This document shows positions 7,203 through 34,945 of a stretch of 34,945 nt of DNA, in pieces. Position 1 is the first letter of the stretch; each line of letters opens with the position of its first letter. The notes under the pieces are model-generated. The model had not been told where the DNA came from and searched no databases. It worked only from the letters and a program-made list of their open reading frames with translations. The stretch spans positions 1-34,945 of the IMG/VR virus record IMGVR_UViG_3300010885_007907. The stretch is one strand, 5' to 3'. This stretch comes from a virus. The translations under genes were made by a program, and so were the position numbers.

Positions 7203-7212
7203 ATATAAATAT
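7203..7212 (-). promoter_or_regulatory. ATATTTAT motif before the 927-aa structural gene
   Basis: The coding strand reads ATATTTATAT and ends 16 bases before the ATG at 7186, with an AGGAA ribosome binding site between them. The motif overlaps the TGA stop of the recombination nuclease gene by one base. It marks the junction between the DNA-metabolism island and the fibre module. Confidence 0.5.
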
Positions 7213-10200
7213 CAAGAATAACTTATTTTAGAATATCCGCTATCTTTCTTAATTTCAATAAGTTTATCTACAATGTCTCTCATAGCATCAATATGTGATA
7301 TACACATAATAAAACCGAACTGAGACTTAAGGTAATCAAATAACGCAAACATGCTGTTTAAATTATCAGAATCTAATACCCCAAACCCTTCGTCTATTGC
7401 TAAGAAGTTTGGTCTCGGTAAACTAGATATTTTAATTAATGAAGTACGTATCGCTAATGAAGCAACAAACTTTTCCATGCCAGATGTTAATTCCAATGGC
7501 CAAAAGTTATCATGATCGTATACAATATAGCCATTGATATTCTTTCCATCAGTTTCTAATAGAATAGAAAAATCTACAATTTGCGCTAATATATTATTTA
7601 TTTCAGCTTCAATCTGCGGAAGTGCCTTTGTTATTAATCGATACGGTACTCCATCTCGTTTAACCGATAACAAATAATATTCATAACCTTTATATTGTAT
7701 TTCTAAATCATGTAACCTTGTAATAGCTTTTTCAGCATCTTGCTTAGCCTGTTCTGCCATTAGTATCTTTCCAGAAATCTGTAATATATTTGATTCTAAA
7801 GATTTTATTTCAGTTGCTAAATCAGCAATCTCTTGTTGATGCTCTAAAATTTCTTCACTCTTTTCTTCATTAAACTTAAGGTCATCGATATGTTGTAATG
7901 AATCGTTCAGCAATCGATTCAATTCTTGTAATTCTGAGTTAATATTTTGAATTGCCAATTTTATCTTTTGATCCTTCAATTGCAATTCAGACTGCTTTAA
8001 AATATATTTTCCTTCAAGGGCTTTTAATTCATTTATTGCTATATAAGCTTTATTGACGCTGTACATGTCACACTTTGGCCAGATCATATCAATTTCTGTT
8101 TGTAATGCCGCATATTCTTTTTGTAATATTGGTAATTGTTCACTAGCTTTTTTAGTATCTTGTAACCACGGATTAGCCATACAATATTTACAGTTCGGAT
8201 CCCATTGATGCTTTTCTAATTTAGAAACCATTTTTTCTGCATGTGCAATATCCATTTCTAATAATTTTGCCTTTGAAGTTAATTCACGATGTGTATCAAT
8301 GTTACTTAAAATTATTTGTTTCTCGGCGTCTATAGAATCTAAATCGTACTTACTAAGTGTTTGAGCTGTACTAGCAATATTGATAATCATAGTATCAATT
8401 TGATCTGTTATATCATTAGATTGTTCTAATAAACTATCCAATTCAGTTTGTTTCTTATCAAGCTTGACACGTATATTATCCGGCTTTTCGATACCAGTAC
8501 CAATAGTCTTTAGTTCTTTAGTCATGTTAATAACTATTTCAGTTAGATCATCCTTCATAGATTCCAACTCAGACTTTTGTTTAGTAATATTTGCTAACGA
8601 TTTAGATAAATTTGTTATAGATTGGTCAGCTTCTGCTAGTGATGTACTATGATCTATACGCTTATACTCTCTAATTAACGCAGCTGTCTCGCGAATCTCT
8701 TCGTTTGCTATCTGGTATTGTTGTTCAAATACATCGATATCTAAAAACTGAGTAAGTAGTTCTTTACGTTCGCGTTGTGACATATCAATAAACCCAGTAT
8801 TATTACTTTGTAATGATAAAGCTGTTAATACAAAGTCTTCATATGAACCAAGATACTGACGAATGATTTTATTTGTAGTGTCCCGTTGGTCTCCGTTTAA
8901 TAATATCTCCTCACCATTCTCATCAATATACCAAAAGTTAACATCGACTTTAACATGGCCTTTATTATTCTTTTTACCAGTACGTTGTATAAAATAATCT
9001 TTACCGTCTAATTCAAATTGAAACTTACAATCAAACGTAGTACGTTTATTATTTAGTACATGTATTGCTTTTGTAGTACGACTACATCTATCAAAACAAC
9101 AAAATGCTAAAGCATCTAATAATGTAGACTTTCCGGAAGCGTTAGGAGCAAATAATCCGTACGAGCCATTTAGTGTAGAAAAATCAATAACATTATCATT
9201 ACCATAGCTGAACATGTTACTAAATTCAAACATTTTAGGCGTCCATAATGCGTTTCTAGTTATTTCAGATTCAGGTAATTTACCATGTACTGTACGATTG
9301 ATATGCCTAACACAATCTAACAATTCTTCATCCAATGCATATTCATCATTTAAGTAATCAGTAATAGCAGTGTTTTGCCATTCTACATCTCTAATATTAC
9401 CAAAGTTAACTTTTTGCTTAGGATCGTAATTACTTAATGCATTTACTTTATGAATTGTAATTTCTTGTACTTTATATTGCTTACGTAATTCTGATACTAT
9501 AGTTTTTAATACAGATGTCTCAGTATCCTTAACCTTTAATCTTAATTTAGGCTTCTTAGGTACATCCATCGACGGATTAAGAATAACACCGTTATCTACT
9601 TCAAACGTATAATACCCATGGTCATTAACAATTTCAACAAACTCAGAAGAGCTAGTTGCTAAGTCCCATACTAAAATACCATGATGTAAAGCTTCTCCAT
9701 GATTTTGTTGAATTAAACTTCCTGGATATGCAATCGTTTTTTCAGCATCTAAGAATTGTAACTTATGAATATCACCTAGCAATACTAAATCATGTCCTTC
9801 GAACAATTCATTCGTAACATGTGTATTACTTAAGGTCATTCCGATATCAGTTTGAGCTAAATTTACAGCTCCATGATGTAAAGCAATCTTATATTTTCCA
9901 TCAAAATCCTTAGCTTTTATGTATTCAGATGGCTTATTAAAAATGGACATAACGTTAAAGTGTACATCGGATATACAATATATCCCGTTGTCTTTAAGAT
10001 AATGTAATTGAGGGTGGTTAAGGGCCTTAACAATAGGGGAAATGGCATCTAAACGATTAGCGTTATTAAGATTACAATCATGATTTCCGCAAATTACTAT
10101 TGTAGGTGCAATATCTGCTAAATTCTGAAAGAAATCTGATACTACATGCACTAGTTCCGGTGACATATCTGTCTTAGCATGTACAATATCTCCAGCTACA

Positions 10201-10358
10201 TATATAAGACTATCTTTTGTTTTCGTCTTTTTAATATACGCATATAACTTTTTGAATACTTGTTGATATTCATCGTGTCGTTTAACATTTCTAACATGTA
10301 CATCTGCAATGTGATAAATTTTATCAATATGCTCTAATCCAATATCTATAGTAAACAT
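7212..10358 (-). CDS. Fused Mre11/SbcD (gp47-like) nuclease and Rad50/SbcC (gp46-like) ATPase, 1048 aa
   Basis: In T4 the gp47 nuclease and gp46 ATPase are two proteins that together process DNA ends for recombination-dependent replication and degrade host DNA. Here both lie in one open frame. Residues 1-~345 are a calcineurin-like nuclease: DVH (19-21), GD (56-57), GNHD (91-94), LHHG (160-163) and GDIH (195-198) give the metal ligands. From ~375 a Rad50 head begins, with Walker A APNASGKS (404-411) and a Q-loop-like 'LSLQSNN' (515-521). Coiled coils then flank a zinc-hook CKYC (723-726). The second half-head has signature LTSGMEKF (957-964), Walker B 'FLAIDEGFG' (985-993) and the SH switch (1021-1022). 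All key motifs are intact, so the fusion should be active. The start overlaps the primase stop by 13 bases. Confidence 0.93.
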   Translation of the reverse strand: MFTIDIGLEHIDKIYHIADVHVRNVKRHDEYQQVFKKLYAYIKKTKTKDSLIYVAGDIVHAKTDMSPELVHVVSDFFQNLADIAPTIVICGNHDCNLNNANRLDAISPIVKALNHPQLHYLKDNGIYCISDVHFNVMSIFNKPSEYIKAKDFDGKYKIALHHGAVNLAQTDIGMTLSNTHVTNELFEGHDLVLLGDIHKLQFLDAEKTIAYPGSLIQQNHGEALHHGILVWDLATSSSEFVEIVNDHGYYTFEVDNGVILNPSMDVPKKPKLRLKVKDTETSVLKTIVSELRKQYKVQEITIHKVNALSNYDPKQKVNFGNIRDVEWQNTAITDYLNDEYALDEELLDCVRHINRTVHGKLPESEITRNALWTPKMFEFSNMFSYGNDNVIDFSTLNGSYGLFAPNASGKSTLLDALAFCCFDRCSRTTKAIHVLNNKRTTFDCKFQFELDGKDYFIQRTGKKNNKGHVKVDVNFWYIDENGEEILLNGDQRDTTNKIIRQYLGSYEDFVLTALSLQSNNTGFIDMSQRERKELLTQFLDIDVFEQQYQIANEEIRETAALIREYKRIDHSTSLAEADQSITNLSKSLANITKQKSELESMKDDLTEIVINMTKELKTIGTGIEKPDNIRVKLDKKQTELDSLLEQSNDITDQIDTMIINIASTAQTLSKYDLDSIDAEKQIILSNIDTHRELTSKAKLLEMDIAHAEKMVSKLEKHQWDPNCKYCMANPWLQDTKKASEQLPILQKEYAALQTEIDMIWPKCDMYSVNKAYIAINELKALEGKYILKQSELQLKDQKIKLAIQNINSELQELNRLLNDSLQHIDDLKFNEEKSEEILEHQQEIADLATEIKSLESNILQISGKILMAEQAKQDAEKAITRLHDLEIQYKGYEYYLLSVKRDGVPYRLITKALPQIEAEINNILAQIVDFSILLETDGKNINGYIVYDHDNFWPLELTSGMEKFVASLAIRTSLIKISSLPRPNFLAIDEGFGVLDSDNLNSMFALFDYLKSQFGFIMCISHIDAMRDIVDKLIEIKKDSGYSKISYS

Positions 10359-11272
10359 AGTATTTTTTCTTCTATTAATTTATTTGCAGTTAACTGCGGT
10401 GTTAAGTCTAATAATTCTTTTATCTTTAAGAACCCTAATTTGCTAGGATCTTTATCTGTTAAGTCTACAAAGTATACAGTTACGCCGTTACTGATAAAAT
10501 ACTCGGCAGCTTCTAATGCTTGCTTACGAGCATCTAGATCTAAACATATATAAATGTCTTTTACTCCCTTCTCTACAATTCGTTTCTTTAAAGTATTTGA
10601 TATAGTCTTTCCAAATAGTGGAATGGCATTACGTTTAATCGCGACAGCGTCAAACGCTCCTTCGACTAATATAATCGGCATACTCCAGTTAACATGTAAT
10701 TCAAAGCCTACTATATCTTTTGATACTTTAGGATTCTTATGTTTATATGTATCAGTATCATAGTATGCACGAGCTACGAAATAATTTAAGCTTCCGTTAG
10801 CATCATAACTAGGAATTATAATTTTATTTGCATAAGGACCTTTTCTACAATACCCCATTCTATACTTAAGTATATCTTTAATAGTTATACCACGATTTTT
10901 TAGATAGTATATAGCATTCCTATATTCAGGTGATGTTTTATCTATTACCCATAACGGCCTATATTCTTCTGGTAATGTTACAACCGGAGTATCTGTTGTA
11001 GTTTTAGTAGGCTTATATTCTGTTTCATCAACTAGCTTAAGTAATTGTGCAATCTTATCTCGTTGAACATTTAGCTTACGAAATAAGACACTTAACTTTC
11101 TACCAGATGCATTACAAACCCAACAATGCCAATATTGTGTTACAAGATTAACTTCAAGCTTCTTCTTTTGAGTATGGCAGAATGGGCAACAATAAGCTAT
11201 GTTATCATTGGAATTCGTTTTGCCTTTACCTAAGACAGAATCTAACAAAGTGATCAAAGAGTACTTACTCAT
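10346..11272 (-). CDS. DNA primase, DnaG/T4 gp61-type
   Basis: Synthesises RNA primers for lagging-strand DNA replication, normally together with a replicative helicase that is not in this window. The amino end holds a zinc ribbon: CPFC at 29-32 and CWVC at 50-53. The catalytic TOPRIM domain shows the acidic 'VEGAFDAVAI' (203-212) and 'CLDLDA' (243-248) motifs that coordinate magnesium. The region between (about 110-195), with 'YLKNRGIT' and 'YMGYC'-like sequence, fits the RNA polymerase subdomain of DnaG-type primases. The length of 308 residues is short, in line with phage gp61-type primases lacking a helicase-binding tail. It follows the endonuclease gene after a 110-base AT-rich gap and overlaps the nuclease/ATPase gene at its 3' end, so these two are co-translated. 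Confidence 0.9.
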   Translation of the reverse strand: MSKYSLITLLDSVLGKGKTNSNDNIAYCCPFCHTQKKKLEVNLVTQYWHCWVCNASGRKLSVLFRKLNVQRDKIAQLLKLVDETEYKPTKTTTDTPVVTLPEEYRPLWVIDKTSPEYRNAIYYLKNRGITIKDILKYRMGYCRKGPYANKIIIPSYDANGSLNYFVARAYYDTDTYKHKNPKVSKDIVGFELHVNWSMPIILVEGAFDAVAIKRNAIPLFGKTISNTLKKRIVEKGVKDIYICLDLDARKQALEAAEYFISNGVTVYFVDLTDKDPSKLGFLKIKELLDLTPQLTANKLIEEKILCLL

Positions 11273-11382: not shown

Positions 11383-11790
11383 TCAAGAGATTAGCCAACT
11401 TTCCGGAATCTTTTTTTCTGCCCATTGAATTCCATGCTTATCGCAAAAGTCTGCATATGATGTTTTCGACCCTTTACGAATCTTGGTTTTTGGGCTCTGA
11501 AAGAGAATGCGTATATCGAGCTCCGGGTGTTGTTCTTTAACTAATAGATGCTTTTTACGGTCTTCTGTAGTCCAACGACCCTTCGTCTCTACTAGTATTC
11601 CATTCGGCAATGTGAAATCAACTGTATACTTAGATTGACGTTCCGGTACTGTATACTTAACAACGGTCTGTTCATACTTAGGATCTATATTTAATTCTTC
11701 TAACTGTTCAGATATCTTATGTTCAAACCCAGACCGGTAACCATATTTGATAGCGTTTGCTCGTATTTTAGACTTTACATTCCATGCCAT
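11383..11790 (-). CDS. T7 endonuclease I-like Holliday junction resolvase
   Basis: Resolves branched DNA such as Holliday junctions and replication intermediates before packaging. The 135 residues align closely with T7 gp3: a first acidic residue in 'SGFEHKI' (E23), 'YTVDFTLPNG' (D58) and 'LVETKGRW' (E68, K70). Their spacing (35, 10 and 2 residues) equals that of E20, D55, E65 and K67 of the T7 enzyme. The following 'DRKKHLLVKEQHPELDIRI' and 'KGSKTSYADFCDKHGI' are also hallmarks of that family, which acts as a domain-swapped dimer. T4 itself uses an unrelated resolvase (endonuclease VII), so this is a replacement of function. The start has an AGGAATAAGTT ribosome binding region and an ATATTTAT motif 14 bases upstream. 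It opens the DNA-metabolism island. Confidence 0.93.
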   Translation of the reverse strand: MAWNVKSKIRANAIKYGYRSGFEHKISEQLEELNIDPKYEQTVVKYTVPERQSKYTVDFTLPNGILVETKGRWTTEDRKKHLLVKEQHPELDIRILFQSPKTKIRKGSKTSYADFCDKHGIQWAEKKIPESWLIS

Positions 11791-31485: not shown

Positions 31486-32103
31486 TTAAATTATTTCGTC
31501 AATTATTCCAAATTCTAATAACTGTTCCGCTGTTAAAAATAAATCTGTTTTCTGTTGTTGTTTCCACCAATCAGCTGGCTTTTTAGTACGCTTAGCTAAT
31601 ACGGAACATACATCATCTTCGATTAATTTTAGATTGTTAATATAAGCTGTCATATCGCTCATCTTAACTCCATCTAAGTAACTACTAGATTCATGGAACA
31701 TGACACATGATCGTTTACTAACCATTCTAACGCCAGTACCACAAGCTAATATTACCGCGGCCGCGGAAAATGCTCTACCACGGCAAATTGTATTAACCTT
31801 AACATCTAAGGTTTCAATATAATCAATAATACCTAACATATCATATACATCACCTCCATTCGAGTTAATAATTAAATTGATAGGATCTGTATTACCTTCT
31901 TCTCTGTTATTTAAGATAGCACGTATCTTAATCATTAAATCAACTAAAGTAGTCCCAGTAACATCATCATTAAGATAAATTACCGAATCTTTAAAGTCAA
32001 TTAATGTTGTTAATTGTTCTGTAACCTCTGTATAAGGTGTCGTAGCCTCTTTATCATCCTTGATATCTGGCTTTTTTATATTGTCTTCTTCGTATATACT
32101 CAT
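31486..32103 (-). CDS. ClpP-like serine protease, 205 aa
   Basis: ClpP/crotonase-fold protease. The substrate-strand and oxyanion region 'INLIINSNGGDVYDMLGI' (75-92), the nucleophile Ser113 in 'CRGRAFSAAAVILACGTG' and catalytic His137 in 'CVMFHESSS' are clear. The carboxyl end has 'KTDLFLTAEQLLEFGIIDEI', which matches the end of ClpP; the third catalytic residue is not certain, because the Asp usually found just before this block seems to be replaced (the nearest is D187). The first ~35 residues are a charged extension. In phages such proteases mature the head or act on host proteins; here the gene is in an auxiliary block, not next to head genes. T4 uses the unrelated gp21 for head maturation. 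Target unknown. Confidence 0.88.
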   Translation of the reverse strand: MSIYEEDNIKKPDIKDDKEATTPYTEVTEQLTTLIDFKDSVIYLNDDVTGTTLVDLMIKIRAILNNREEGNTDPINLIINSNGGDVYDMLGIIDYIETLDVKVNTICRGRAFSAAAVILACGTGVRMVSKRSCVMFHESSSYLDGVKMSDMTAYINNLKLIEDDVCSVLAKRTKKPADWWKQQQKTDLFLTAEQLLEFGIIDEII

Positions 32104-33764: not shown

Positions 33765-33934
33765 TAGCTAATTTCTACACGTTGCATTGCAAAACGAATT
33801 CTTCGACGGATTTCAGTTAAACGGCGTACTGCCTCGGTAGTGTCGATAGCCTTTTTATTAGCTAAATCGATTAAAATTTGAGCCATGTTATCAGCCTCAT
33901 CTAATTGTCTTAGAACATTGTCTTTGTCTTTCAT
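33764..33934 (-). CDS. Small helical protein, 56 aa
   Basis: A short gene with starts and stops that fit both neighbours: its ATG (33934-33932) overlaps the UvdE stop (ATGA) and its TAA overlaps the next ATG (TAATG). The product begins MKDKDNVLRQLDEADNMAQI and ends RRIRFAMQRVEIS; nearly all of it should form two amphipathic helices, acidic in the first half and Arg-rich in the second. No family recognised. The tight overlaps and helical pattern make it a real gene; a partner of the following membrane protein or a small regulator is possible. An ATATTTAT motif 27 bases upstream, within the end of uvdE, may provide separate transcription. Confidence 0.72.
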   Translation of the reverse strand: MKDKDNVLRQLDEADNMAQILIDLANKKAIDTTEAVRRLTEIRRRIRFAMQRVEIS

Positions 33935-34945
33935 ATTAAAACCTTTTGTTGATTATTATACTTATAAATATCTCTCCACTTTAAAAGTGCTAATTCTTTG
34001 GCTTTAGCCTCTATCATAATATCGACTTCGCATCCGTATGTATTGATAGGATGTATAATGTAATCGGCATGTGCCGTTACTTTGATCTTATCAAAGTCTT
34101 TTTTGTATTGGGCAAATGTCGGCCACGCTAGTAACTTATCTAACGGAATATTATGTTGATTGCTAACCTTTTCTAACATCAATTGATGCTCCGTGCGACG
34201 GGACTCGCTATAGTGGCAACATTGTGTAATACCTATAGGCCATGTACTACGAGCCATCTCAAATGCTTCTTGTTCAGATAAACTACCTGGGTGTAAACTA
34301 TGATGAAAATAGTCAAAGGTAATAGGAATGCCAATATTTTGATGAACAAATGAATATAGCATAGATACACTATACATACTAGGCTTGTCATCATTTTCTA
34401 CTACTAAGCGTGCTTTGCAGCTATCAGACAATCGCTCCCAATTTTTCATCCATCGATATGCAGTACCTTCAGGGTCGCCATATACACCACCGATATGAAT
34501 ATTGATCTTATTGTCATAAGACGGAGCAAAACCCATCATATCAAACATCTCAGAATGGCGCTCTAAACTAATAATACTTTTGTTAACAACATCCTCGCGA
34601 GTGCCGCCTAAAATATGGAACGGACCGGGATGTGTAGTAAGTCTATGGCCATGTGCTCGAGCAAACTCGCCACATTCGAAAAGTAACTTACTAATCTCGT
34701 CATAGCCTGGTAATGTATGTAACTCATAATGATCAGCCCATGGTATCAATTCAGAACCTATACGAAATAAACGAATGCCATTCTCCTCGTTCCACTTAAG
34801 GATATGCAAAAGATCTTTTGCGTTAAGAATAGCAATATCGCTAAGTTTCTTAAGGTCGTTATTAGGAAACCATGACTCTTTGCGTACCCCACGCCCGGTA
34901 AGGATACGACCACCTAACTTGTTAGGACGGGCTGCCAATGTATTA
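33931..34945 (-). CDS. uvdE: UV DNA damage endonuclease (UvdE/UVDE), 5' end outside the window
   Basis: Cuts DNA 5' to UV photoproducts and some other lesions, starting an alternative excision repair. The TIM-barrel metal ligands of the family are visible, numbering from a TTG at 34938: H103 in 'LTTHPGPFHILG', H148 in 'INIHIGG', E181 in 'LVVENDD', D209 and H212/H213 in 'ITFDYFHHSLHPG', H242 in 'CCHYSESR', H290/H296 in 'TAHADYIIHP' and E310 in 'DIMIEAKAKELALLKW'. The frame stays open to the window edge, reading NTL before AARPNKLGG; the usual LGYACIN-type first strand is missing, so the real start lies further upstream and the TTG is not the start. The 3' end overlaps the next gene as ATGA. 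Such an enzyme in a phage would protect its genome from sunlight damage. Confidence 0.93.
   Translation of the reverse strand, partial: NTLAARPNKLGGRILTGRGVRKESWFPNNDLKKLSDIAILNAKDLLHILKWNEENGIRLFRIGSELIPWADHYELHTLPGYDEISKLLFECGEFARAHGHRLTTHPGPFHILGGTREDVVNKSIISLERHSEMFDMMGFAPSYDNKINIHIGGVYGDPEGTAYRWMKNWERLSDSCKARLVVENDDKPSMYSVSMLYSFVHQNIGIPITFDYFHHSLHPGSLSEQEAFEMARSTWPIGITQCCHYSESRRTEHQLMLEKVSNQHNIPLDKLLAWPTFAQYKKDFDKIKVTAHADYIIHPINTYGCEVDIMIEAKAKELALLKWRDIYKYNNQQKVLI
33962..33971 (-). promoter_or_regulatory. ATATTTAT motif within the 3' end of uvdE
   Basis: The coding strand reads ATATTTATAA, 27 bases before the ATG of the 56-residue gene and inside the last codons of uvdE. It is the only one of the seven gene-proximal copies fully inside a coding region, which hints at selection for the motif, since it could also be explained by the codons used there. 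Confidence 0.4.

Follow-up and report, generated by a model that had tools for sequence, protein, structure and literature searches.

The fused gene and its neighbourhood

The window, a 34,945-base IMG/VR virus record that is a metagenomic fragment, carries a gene in which an Mre11 domain is followed by a Rad50/SbcC domain in one open frame. The original prediction gave its coordinates correctly; the gene is located on the minus strand and reads from 10358 to 7212. Its ATG is at 10358-10356 and its stop at 7214-7212, and a frame check found stops throughout the plus strand over 7212-10358. The features of the locus are as follows.

7212..10358, minus strand: fused Mre11-Rad50 gene, 1048 codons (open frame and Pfam)
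9621..10358, minus strand: Mre11 phosphodiesterase core, residues 1-246, with D19xH21, D57, N92H93, H162 and D196xH198 (Pfam, alignment, model)
9447..9620, minus strand: putative Mre11 capping domain, residues 247-304 (secondary structure of the model)
9282..9386, minus strand: predicted helix-loop-helix clasp by which Mre11 would bind Rad50, residues 325-359 (helices 325-340 and 344-359 of the model)
9249..9281, minus strand: linker, residues 360-370, in place of the stop and start of a two-gene arrangement (model coil, fixed spacing)
7215..9248, minus strand: Rad50/SbcC part, residues 371-1048 (Pfam AAA_23 and SMC_N; phrog_77)
9126..9149, minus strand: Walker A APNASGKS, residues 404-411 (N406, G409, K410 and S411 invariant)
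8181..8192, minus strand: zinc hook CKYC, residues 723-726, between two coiled-coil arms (sequence, alignment, model)
7467..7490, minus strand: ABC signature LTSGMEKF, residues 957-964 (S959, G960 and E962 invariant)
7389..7406, minus strand: Walker B FLAIDE, residues 985-990, with the D-loop next to it (D989, E990, G991 and D996 invariant)
7293..7295, minus strand: switch (H-loop) His1022 (invariant in 62 fusions)
10346..11272, minus strand: DnaG-type primase gene (Zn_ribbon_DnaG; phrog_47)
11383..11790, minus strand: gene for a T7 gp3-like endonuclease I, a Holliday-junction resolvase (Phage_endo_I, E 2.2e-53)

That one uninterrupted 1048-codon frame contains both the nuclease and Rad50 was borne out by the frame itself and by Pfam, which places Metallophos at residues 13-199 (E 1.9e-9), AAA_23 at 380-603 (E 9e-15) and SMC_N at 755-1040 (E 1.6e-8, under the SMC_N cut-off). 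The Rad50 part also matches phrog_77, an SbcC-like family, at E 4.6e-51. Since the curated SbcC, Rad50 and SbcD models all score below their cut-offs, the window fusion is a divergent member of the family. The 3' end of the primase gene overlaps the start of the fusion by 13 bases, and in most relatives the primase, endonuclease I and fusion genes are neighbours in the same order. Promoter and terminator scans gave chance-level results only. Elsewhere on the minus strand, 33931-34938 encodes an endonuclease matching phrog_8420, which looks like a UV-damage endonuclease, and 31486-32103 encodes a ClpP-like protein that matches phage head maturation protease families.

In an alignment of 62 fusions of 33-94% identity, the nuclease residues D19, H21, D57, H60, N92, H93, H162, D196 and H198 are invariant, as are C723 and C726 of the hook and Q328 and N354 of the clasp. 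Walker A, signature, Walker B, D-loop, switch His and CxxC hook, the whole ATPase set of Mre11-Rad50/SbcCD, are present and conserved, so that all five nuclease motifs and all the Rad50 motifs named beforehand were found. Motif V is GDIH (195-198) and not GHxH in 177 of 177 fusions, including one from a huge phage (L027). The GHxH form is usual in textbook Mre11 and SbcCD and is found in the Mre11 of T4 and Herelleviridae, but it is not universal; GDLH, for instance, is the form in the T5-type D12 of phage Stubb. The Asp that replaces His as a metal ligand could alter metal use or activity.

An AlphaFold2 model built from 61 fusions has a mean pLDDT of 84.6 and a pTM of 0.50, and because the pTM is only 0.50 the relative placement of the domains is uncertain. 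In the model, strands 247-255 and 269-277, helix 281-294 and strand 299-304 would form the capping domain, an assignment that follows the domain order of solved Mre11. After a low-confidence stretch at 307-316 come helices 325-340 and 344-359, and then a coil at 360-370 without helix or strand. The first strand of Rad50 begins at 371 and is followed by the coiled coils with the hook and by the C-terminal head. The two helices are consistent with the expectation that the Mre11 clasp lies within residues 290-370, from where it would dock on Rad50. The linker had been placed at about 345-375. A linker is indeed predicted there, but it appears narrower, with Rad50 starting at about 371 and much of the proposed stretch forming the second clasp helix. 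Thus the capping and helix-loop-helix regions are kept and the modelled linker has 11 residues.

A probable single-chain enzyme for double-strand ends

We consider it highly likely that the protein is a single-chain Mre11-Rad50 (SbcD-SbcC, gp47-gp46) of the R555 type, which handles double-strand ends in recombination-dependent replication and in repair. Two copies of the fusion would join at the ATPase heads and at the zinc hooks to make an M2R2 engine; the homodimer of fusions proposed in the original prediction is upheld on the basis of head dimerisation. ATP binding would shut the heads, and hydrolysis would open them and let DNA ends reach the Mn-dependent nuclease. This head cycle is suggested because of the analogy with studied Mre11-Rad50 complexes, in which, according to a passage of PMC13402864, the Rad50 heads close with ATP and, upon hydrolysis, open for Mre11. 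T4 gp46/47 supports recombination-dependent replication, and during infection the fusion, co-expressed with the primase and the endonuclease I resolvase, would act on double-strand ends in the same two processes, replication and repair. Most likely it works as a homodimer, a phage complex of the SbcCD/gp46-gp47 type with nuclease and ATPase activities that feeds a RecA/UvsX-like recombinase. A RecA-family gene is present in all eight of the larger related records.

A separate Rad50 might also be made from an internal start, as Met376 and Met382 are located at the beginning of Rad50. This is very unlikely: a Shine-Dalgarno-like sequence is absent from the 25 bases upstream of both codons, Met376 is substituted in many homologues, and Met382, though invariant, is inside the first strand. 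The fusion chain may be cut in the linker by post-translational cleavage.

It is likewise very unlikely that the protein, instead of serving recombination, is a defence SMC like LmuB of Lamassu that has borrowed a nuclease. The PADLOC LmuB profile does match the Rad50 half (E 2.5e-27), but this reflects the general Rad50/SMC fold, whereas the full Mre11 nuclease, the clasp and the CxxC hook are all present and a primase and a resolvase lie alongside the gene in nearly every relative. A Lamassu system has an SMC protein with an LmuA effector and without fused Mre11; here the nuclease is fused, and the adjacent genes of the window, primase and endonuclease I, are not Lamassu-like.

The fusion is virtually certain to be no artefact of assembly or sequencing in which a lost stop or a frame shift joined adjacent genes: the window does come from metagenomic data, as a 34.9-kb fragment in single copy, but the same fusion occurs in independent contigs and in the isolated phage Mel-JY01, and across junction codons 340-380 pN is 0, with pS of 0.66 and 0.54, against the nearest relatives L001 and L002 (13-15 silent changes and zero amino-acid changes). 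Because pN is 0 with such pS values, the frame is translated across the junction, which is under purifying selection. The original prediction had considered a stop or frameshift between residues 340 and 380 and relatives that are always two genes; neither was found, the relatives being fused. As it had also suggested, a search for other phage fusions with the same linker was made. Many were found, and the spacing between Asn354 and Trp372 is near-constant, with 17 residues in 61 of 62 fusions.

Distribution and relation to R555-type fusions

Well over 100 viral contigs, independent of one another, carry straight-through homologues of 33-94% identity. In the first round, each of 23 viral relatives matched both domains up to the limits of its contig; two of them, L022 and L023, turned out to be split inside Mre11. 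In a census of 368 loci, with distinct loci defined by a 300-base tag, 311 are fused (183 distinct) and 33 have their break inside Mre11 (24 distinct); as the queries bias the sample, these figures are counts and not frequencies. Breaks at the Mre11/Rad50 boundary were found in no member of the clade. All six outgroup phages fetched have two genes. In a tree, which is a quick search with long branches flagged, a supported branch separates the fusions of the clade and L027 from the two-gene phage proteins. Of eight related records, six (Mel-JY01, LR756508 and all but one of five IMG/VR records) encode a single AAA_23 protein, either the fusion or the split version of it. The remaining IMG/VR record, G004, has an intact fusion frame but zero AAA_23 matches at threshold, and a 735-kb phage has three AAA_23 proteins. 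Thus a whole phage clade lives on a single-chain Mre11-Rad50, usually its sole one, and the fusion family is common to a very large group of aquatic phages.

The nearest isolated relative, of another species, is Microcystis phage Mel-JY01. Its WWT39521.1 is a full-length fusion with 44.7% identity over 99% and an adjoining primase gene, and is annotated merely as 'AAA domain containing protein'. T4 gp47/gp46 and Herelleviridae SbcD/SbcC have the same two domains, the gene for Mre11 lying upstream of that for Rad50, and Herelleviridae also have a primase nearby, as for the window fusion; however, these are separate genes and show about 22-24% identity, mainly in the Rad50 part. The gp47-gp46 protein of Xanthomonas phage XacN1 (1099 aa) is also one chain with Metallophos and AAA_23. 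Since it clusters with two-gene T4-like proteins (98% SH-aLRT, long branches flagged) and retains GHFH, the XacN1 fusion probably arose independently. It lies at L218:2976-6275 and is annotated just as 'recombination endonuclease subunit'. Stenotrophomonas phages CM1 and RAS14 have a 56% relative, aligned along the full length in two pieces. Fusion homologues were also seen on contigs (L108-L111) in bacterial and archaeal MAGs, including 'Nitrosopelagicus' and 'Chloroflexi'; they look like phage contigs in MAG bins, because L108 and L109 carry phage neighbour genes.

Fusions of Mre11 and Rad50 were described by Yoshida, Claverie and Ogata in 2011 with Mimivirus R555 as the type (PMC3175470), and IMG/VR holds at least 591 matching stretches, so the rarity and novelty that had been implied are not supported. 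The window fusion is confirmed, but this kind of protein has been known since 2011. R555 and the window fusion have the same order, Mre11 then Rad50, in one chain with a short linker. According to its published description, R555 carries Asp at the first His position in motif V and His at the last Asp position in GDxxD (PMC3175470), and both substitutions are in the window fusion (GDIH and D57IVH60). With about 28 A between the C-terminus of Mre11 and the N-terminus of Rad50, a linker of 9-12 residues was estimated to be needed in R555-type fusions (PMC3175470), and the 11 residues modelled here fall in this range. The two proteins differ in length (1351 aa for R555 and 1048 aa for the window fusion) and in the virus that carries them, a giant virus in one case and, in the other, a tailed phage that has genes for a baseplate and a head protease. 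The best viral matches in a BFVD fold search are giant-virus repair proteins of about the length of the fusion, from Tupanvirus (top, 26% identity), Harvfovirus, Yasminevirus, Terrestrivirus and Catovirus; the best solved matches in the PDB are chains of the Mre11-Rad50 complex from Chaetomium and E. coli.

Marine phage scaffolds with R555-like genes also carried primases and gp3-like endonucleases of T7-like phages (PMC3175470), the same neighbourhood as in the window. Very probably these scaffolds came from the phage group of the window. Many full-length genes are now in place of the 2011 inference from partial marine scaffolds. With its fixed stoichiometry, a single chain would lend itself to structural and single-molecule study of ATP-controlled end processing. 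The new gene and the clade survey are modest additions; the recurrent breakage of Mre11 is the more interesting part.

Relatives split again within Mre11

A break in the fused gene follows GDIHKxQ in 24 distinct contigs, with the restart ahead of YxGSxIQQ. The site is always the same, inside the nuclease core of Mre11 between motif V and the next strand. L272 is among the split loci, for which several forms were seen. The frames overlap without an insert in L022, L113, L114, L312 and L305, and short spacers separate them in L023, L163 and L182. In LR756508 (L026:5692-6609) a 305-aa zinc-ribbon, HNH/TnsA-like ORF, putatively homing-endonuclease-like, lies between the pieces. The L283-L304 group has a conserved ORF of about 300 aa at the split site (L283:3543-4490; equivalents in L285-L304), which has zero Pfam or Rfam matches and, we presume, resembles a GT9 glycosyltransferase. 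N-terminal pieces end in related acidic tails, such as VSEDELDSYLSTGDYEL and PESKLDSYKLDGW, and eight distinct C-terminal pieces have a basic MKxYxxRKxxP-like head, a pattern absent from all other ORFs of more than 300 residues in the loci collected. The tails of split pieces were found on no other phage proteins by tblastn, which with a 34-residue query is weak evidence.

Group I introns and a split intein were considered at the split and rejected. In L022, L023 and L026 Rfam at E <= 1 gave a lone sub-threshold microRNA model, and L286, L299 and L293 had no Rfam match at the gathering threshold; the Cys/Ser or Asn-plus-nucleophile residues of an intein are absent from the boundaries as judged by eye. 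The literature on T4 reports homing-endonuclease insertions that divide nrdA and gene 60, and also a split gene 43; in these cases the pieces still make working enzymes. The homing-endonuclease-split nrdA of phage Aeh1 serves as the model here. We lean towards the idea that the fused gene has been repeatedly broken again within the Mre11 core by cassettes of stop, start and tail, and we hypothesize that the pieces reassemble in trans as in Aeh1. The recurrent splitting inside Mre11 is a new side finding that deserves its own study, and as a natural experiment the re-split relatives could show where the machine tolerates being cut.

The split is found on at least five branches of the tree: six changes between the fused and the split form are required, and starred branches force at least five of them. 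In one case, the split L163 (5062-5300) and the fused L349 (from 4447) have flanks of about 85-86% identical DNA, and a stretch of about 185 bases, which brings in a stop and a new start, takes the place of about 35 bases. Since this identity is found on both flanks, the break in L163 is comparatively recent.
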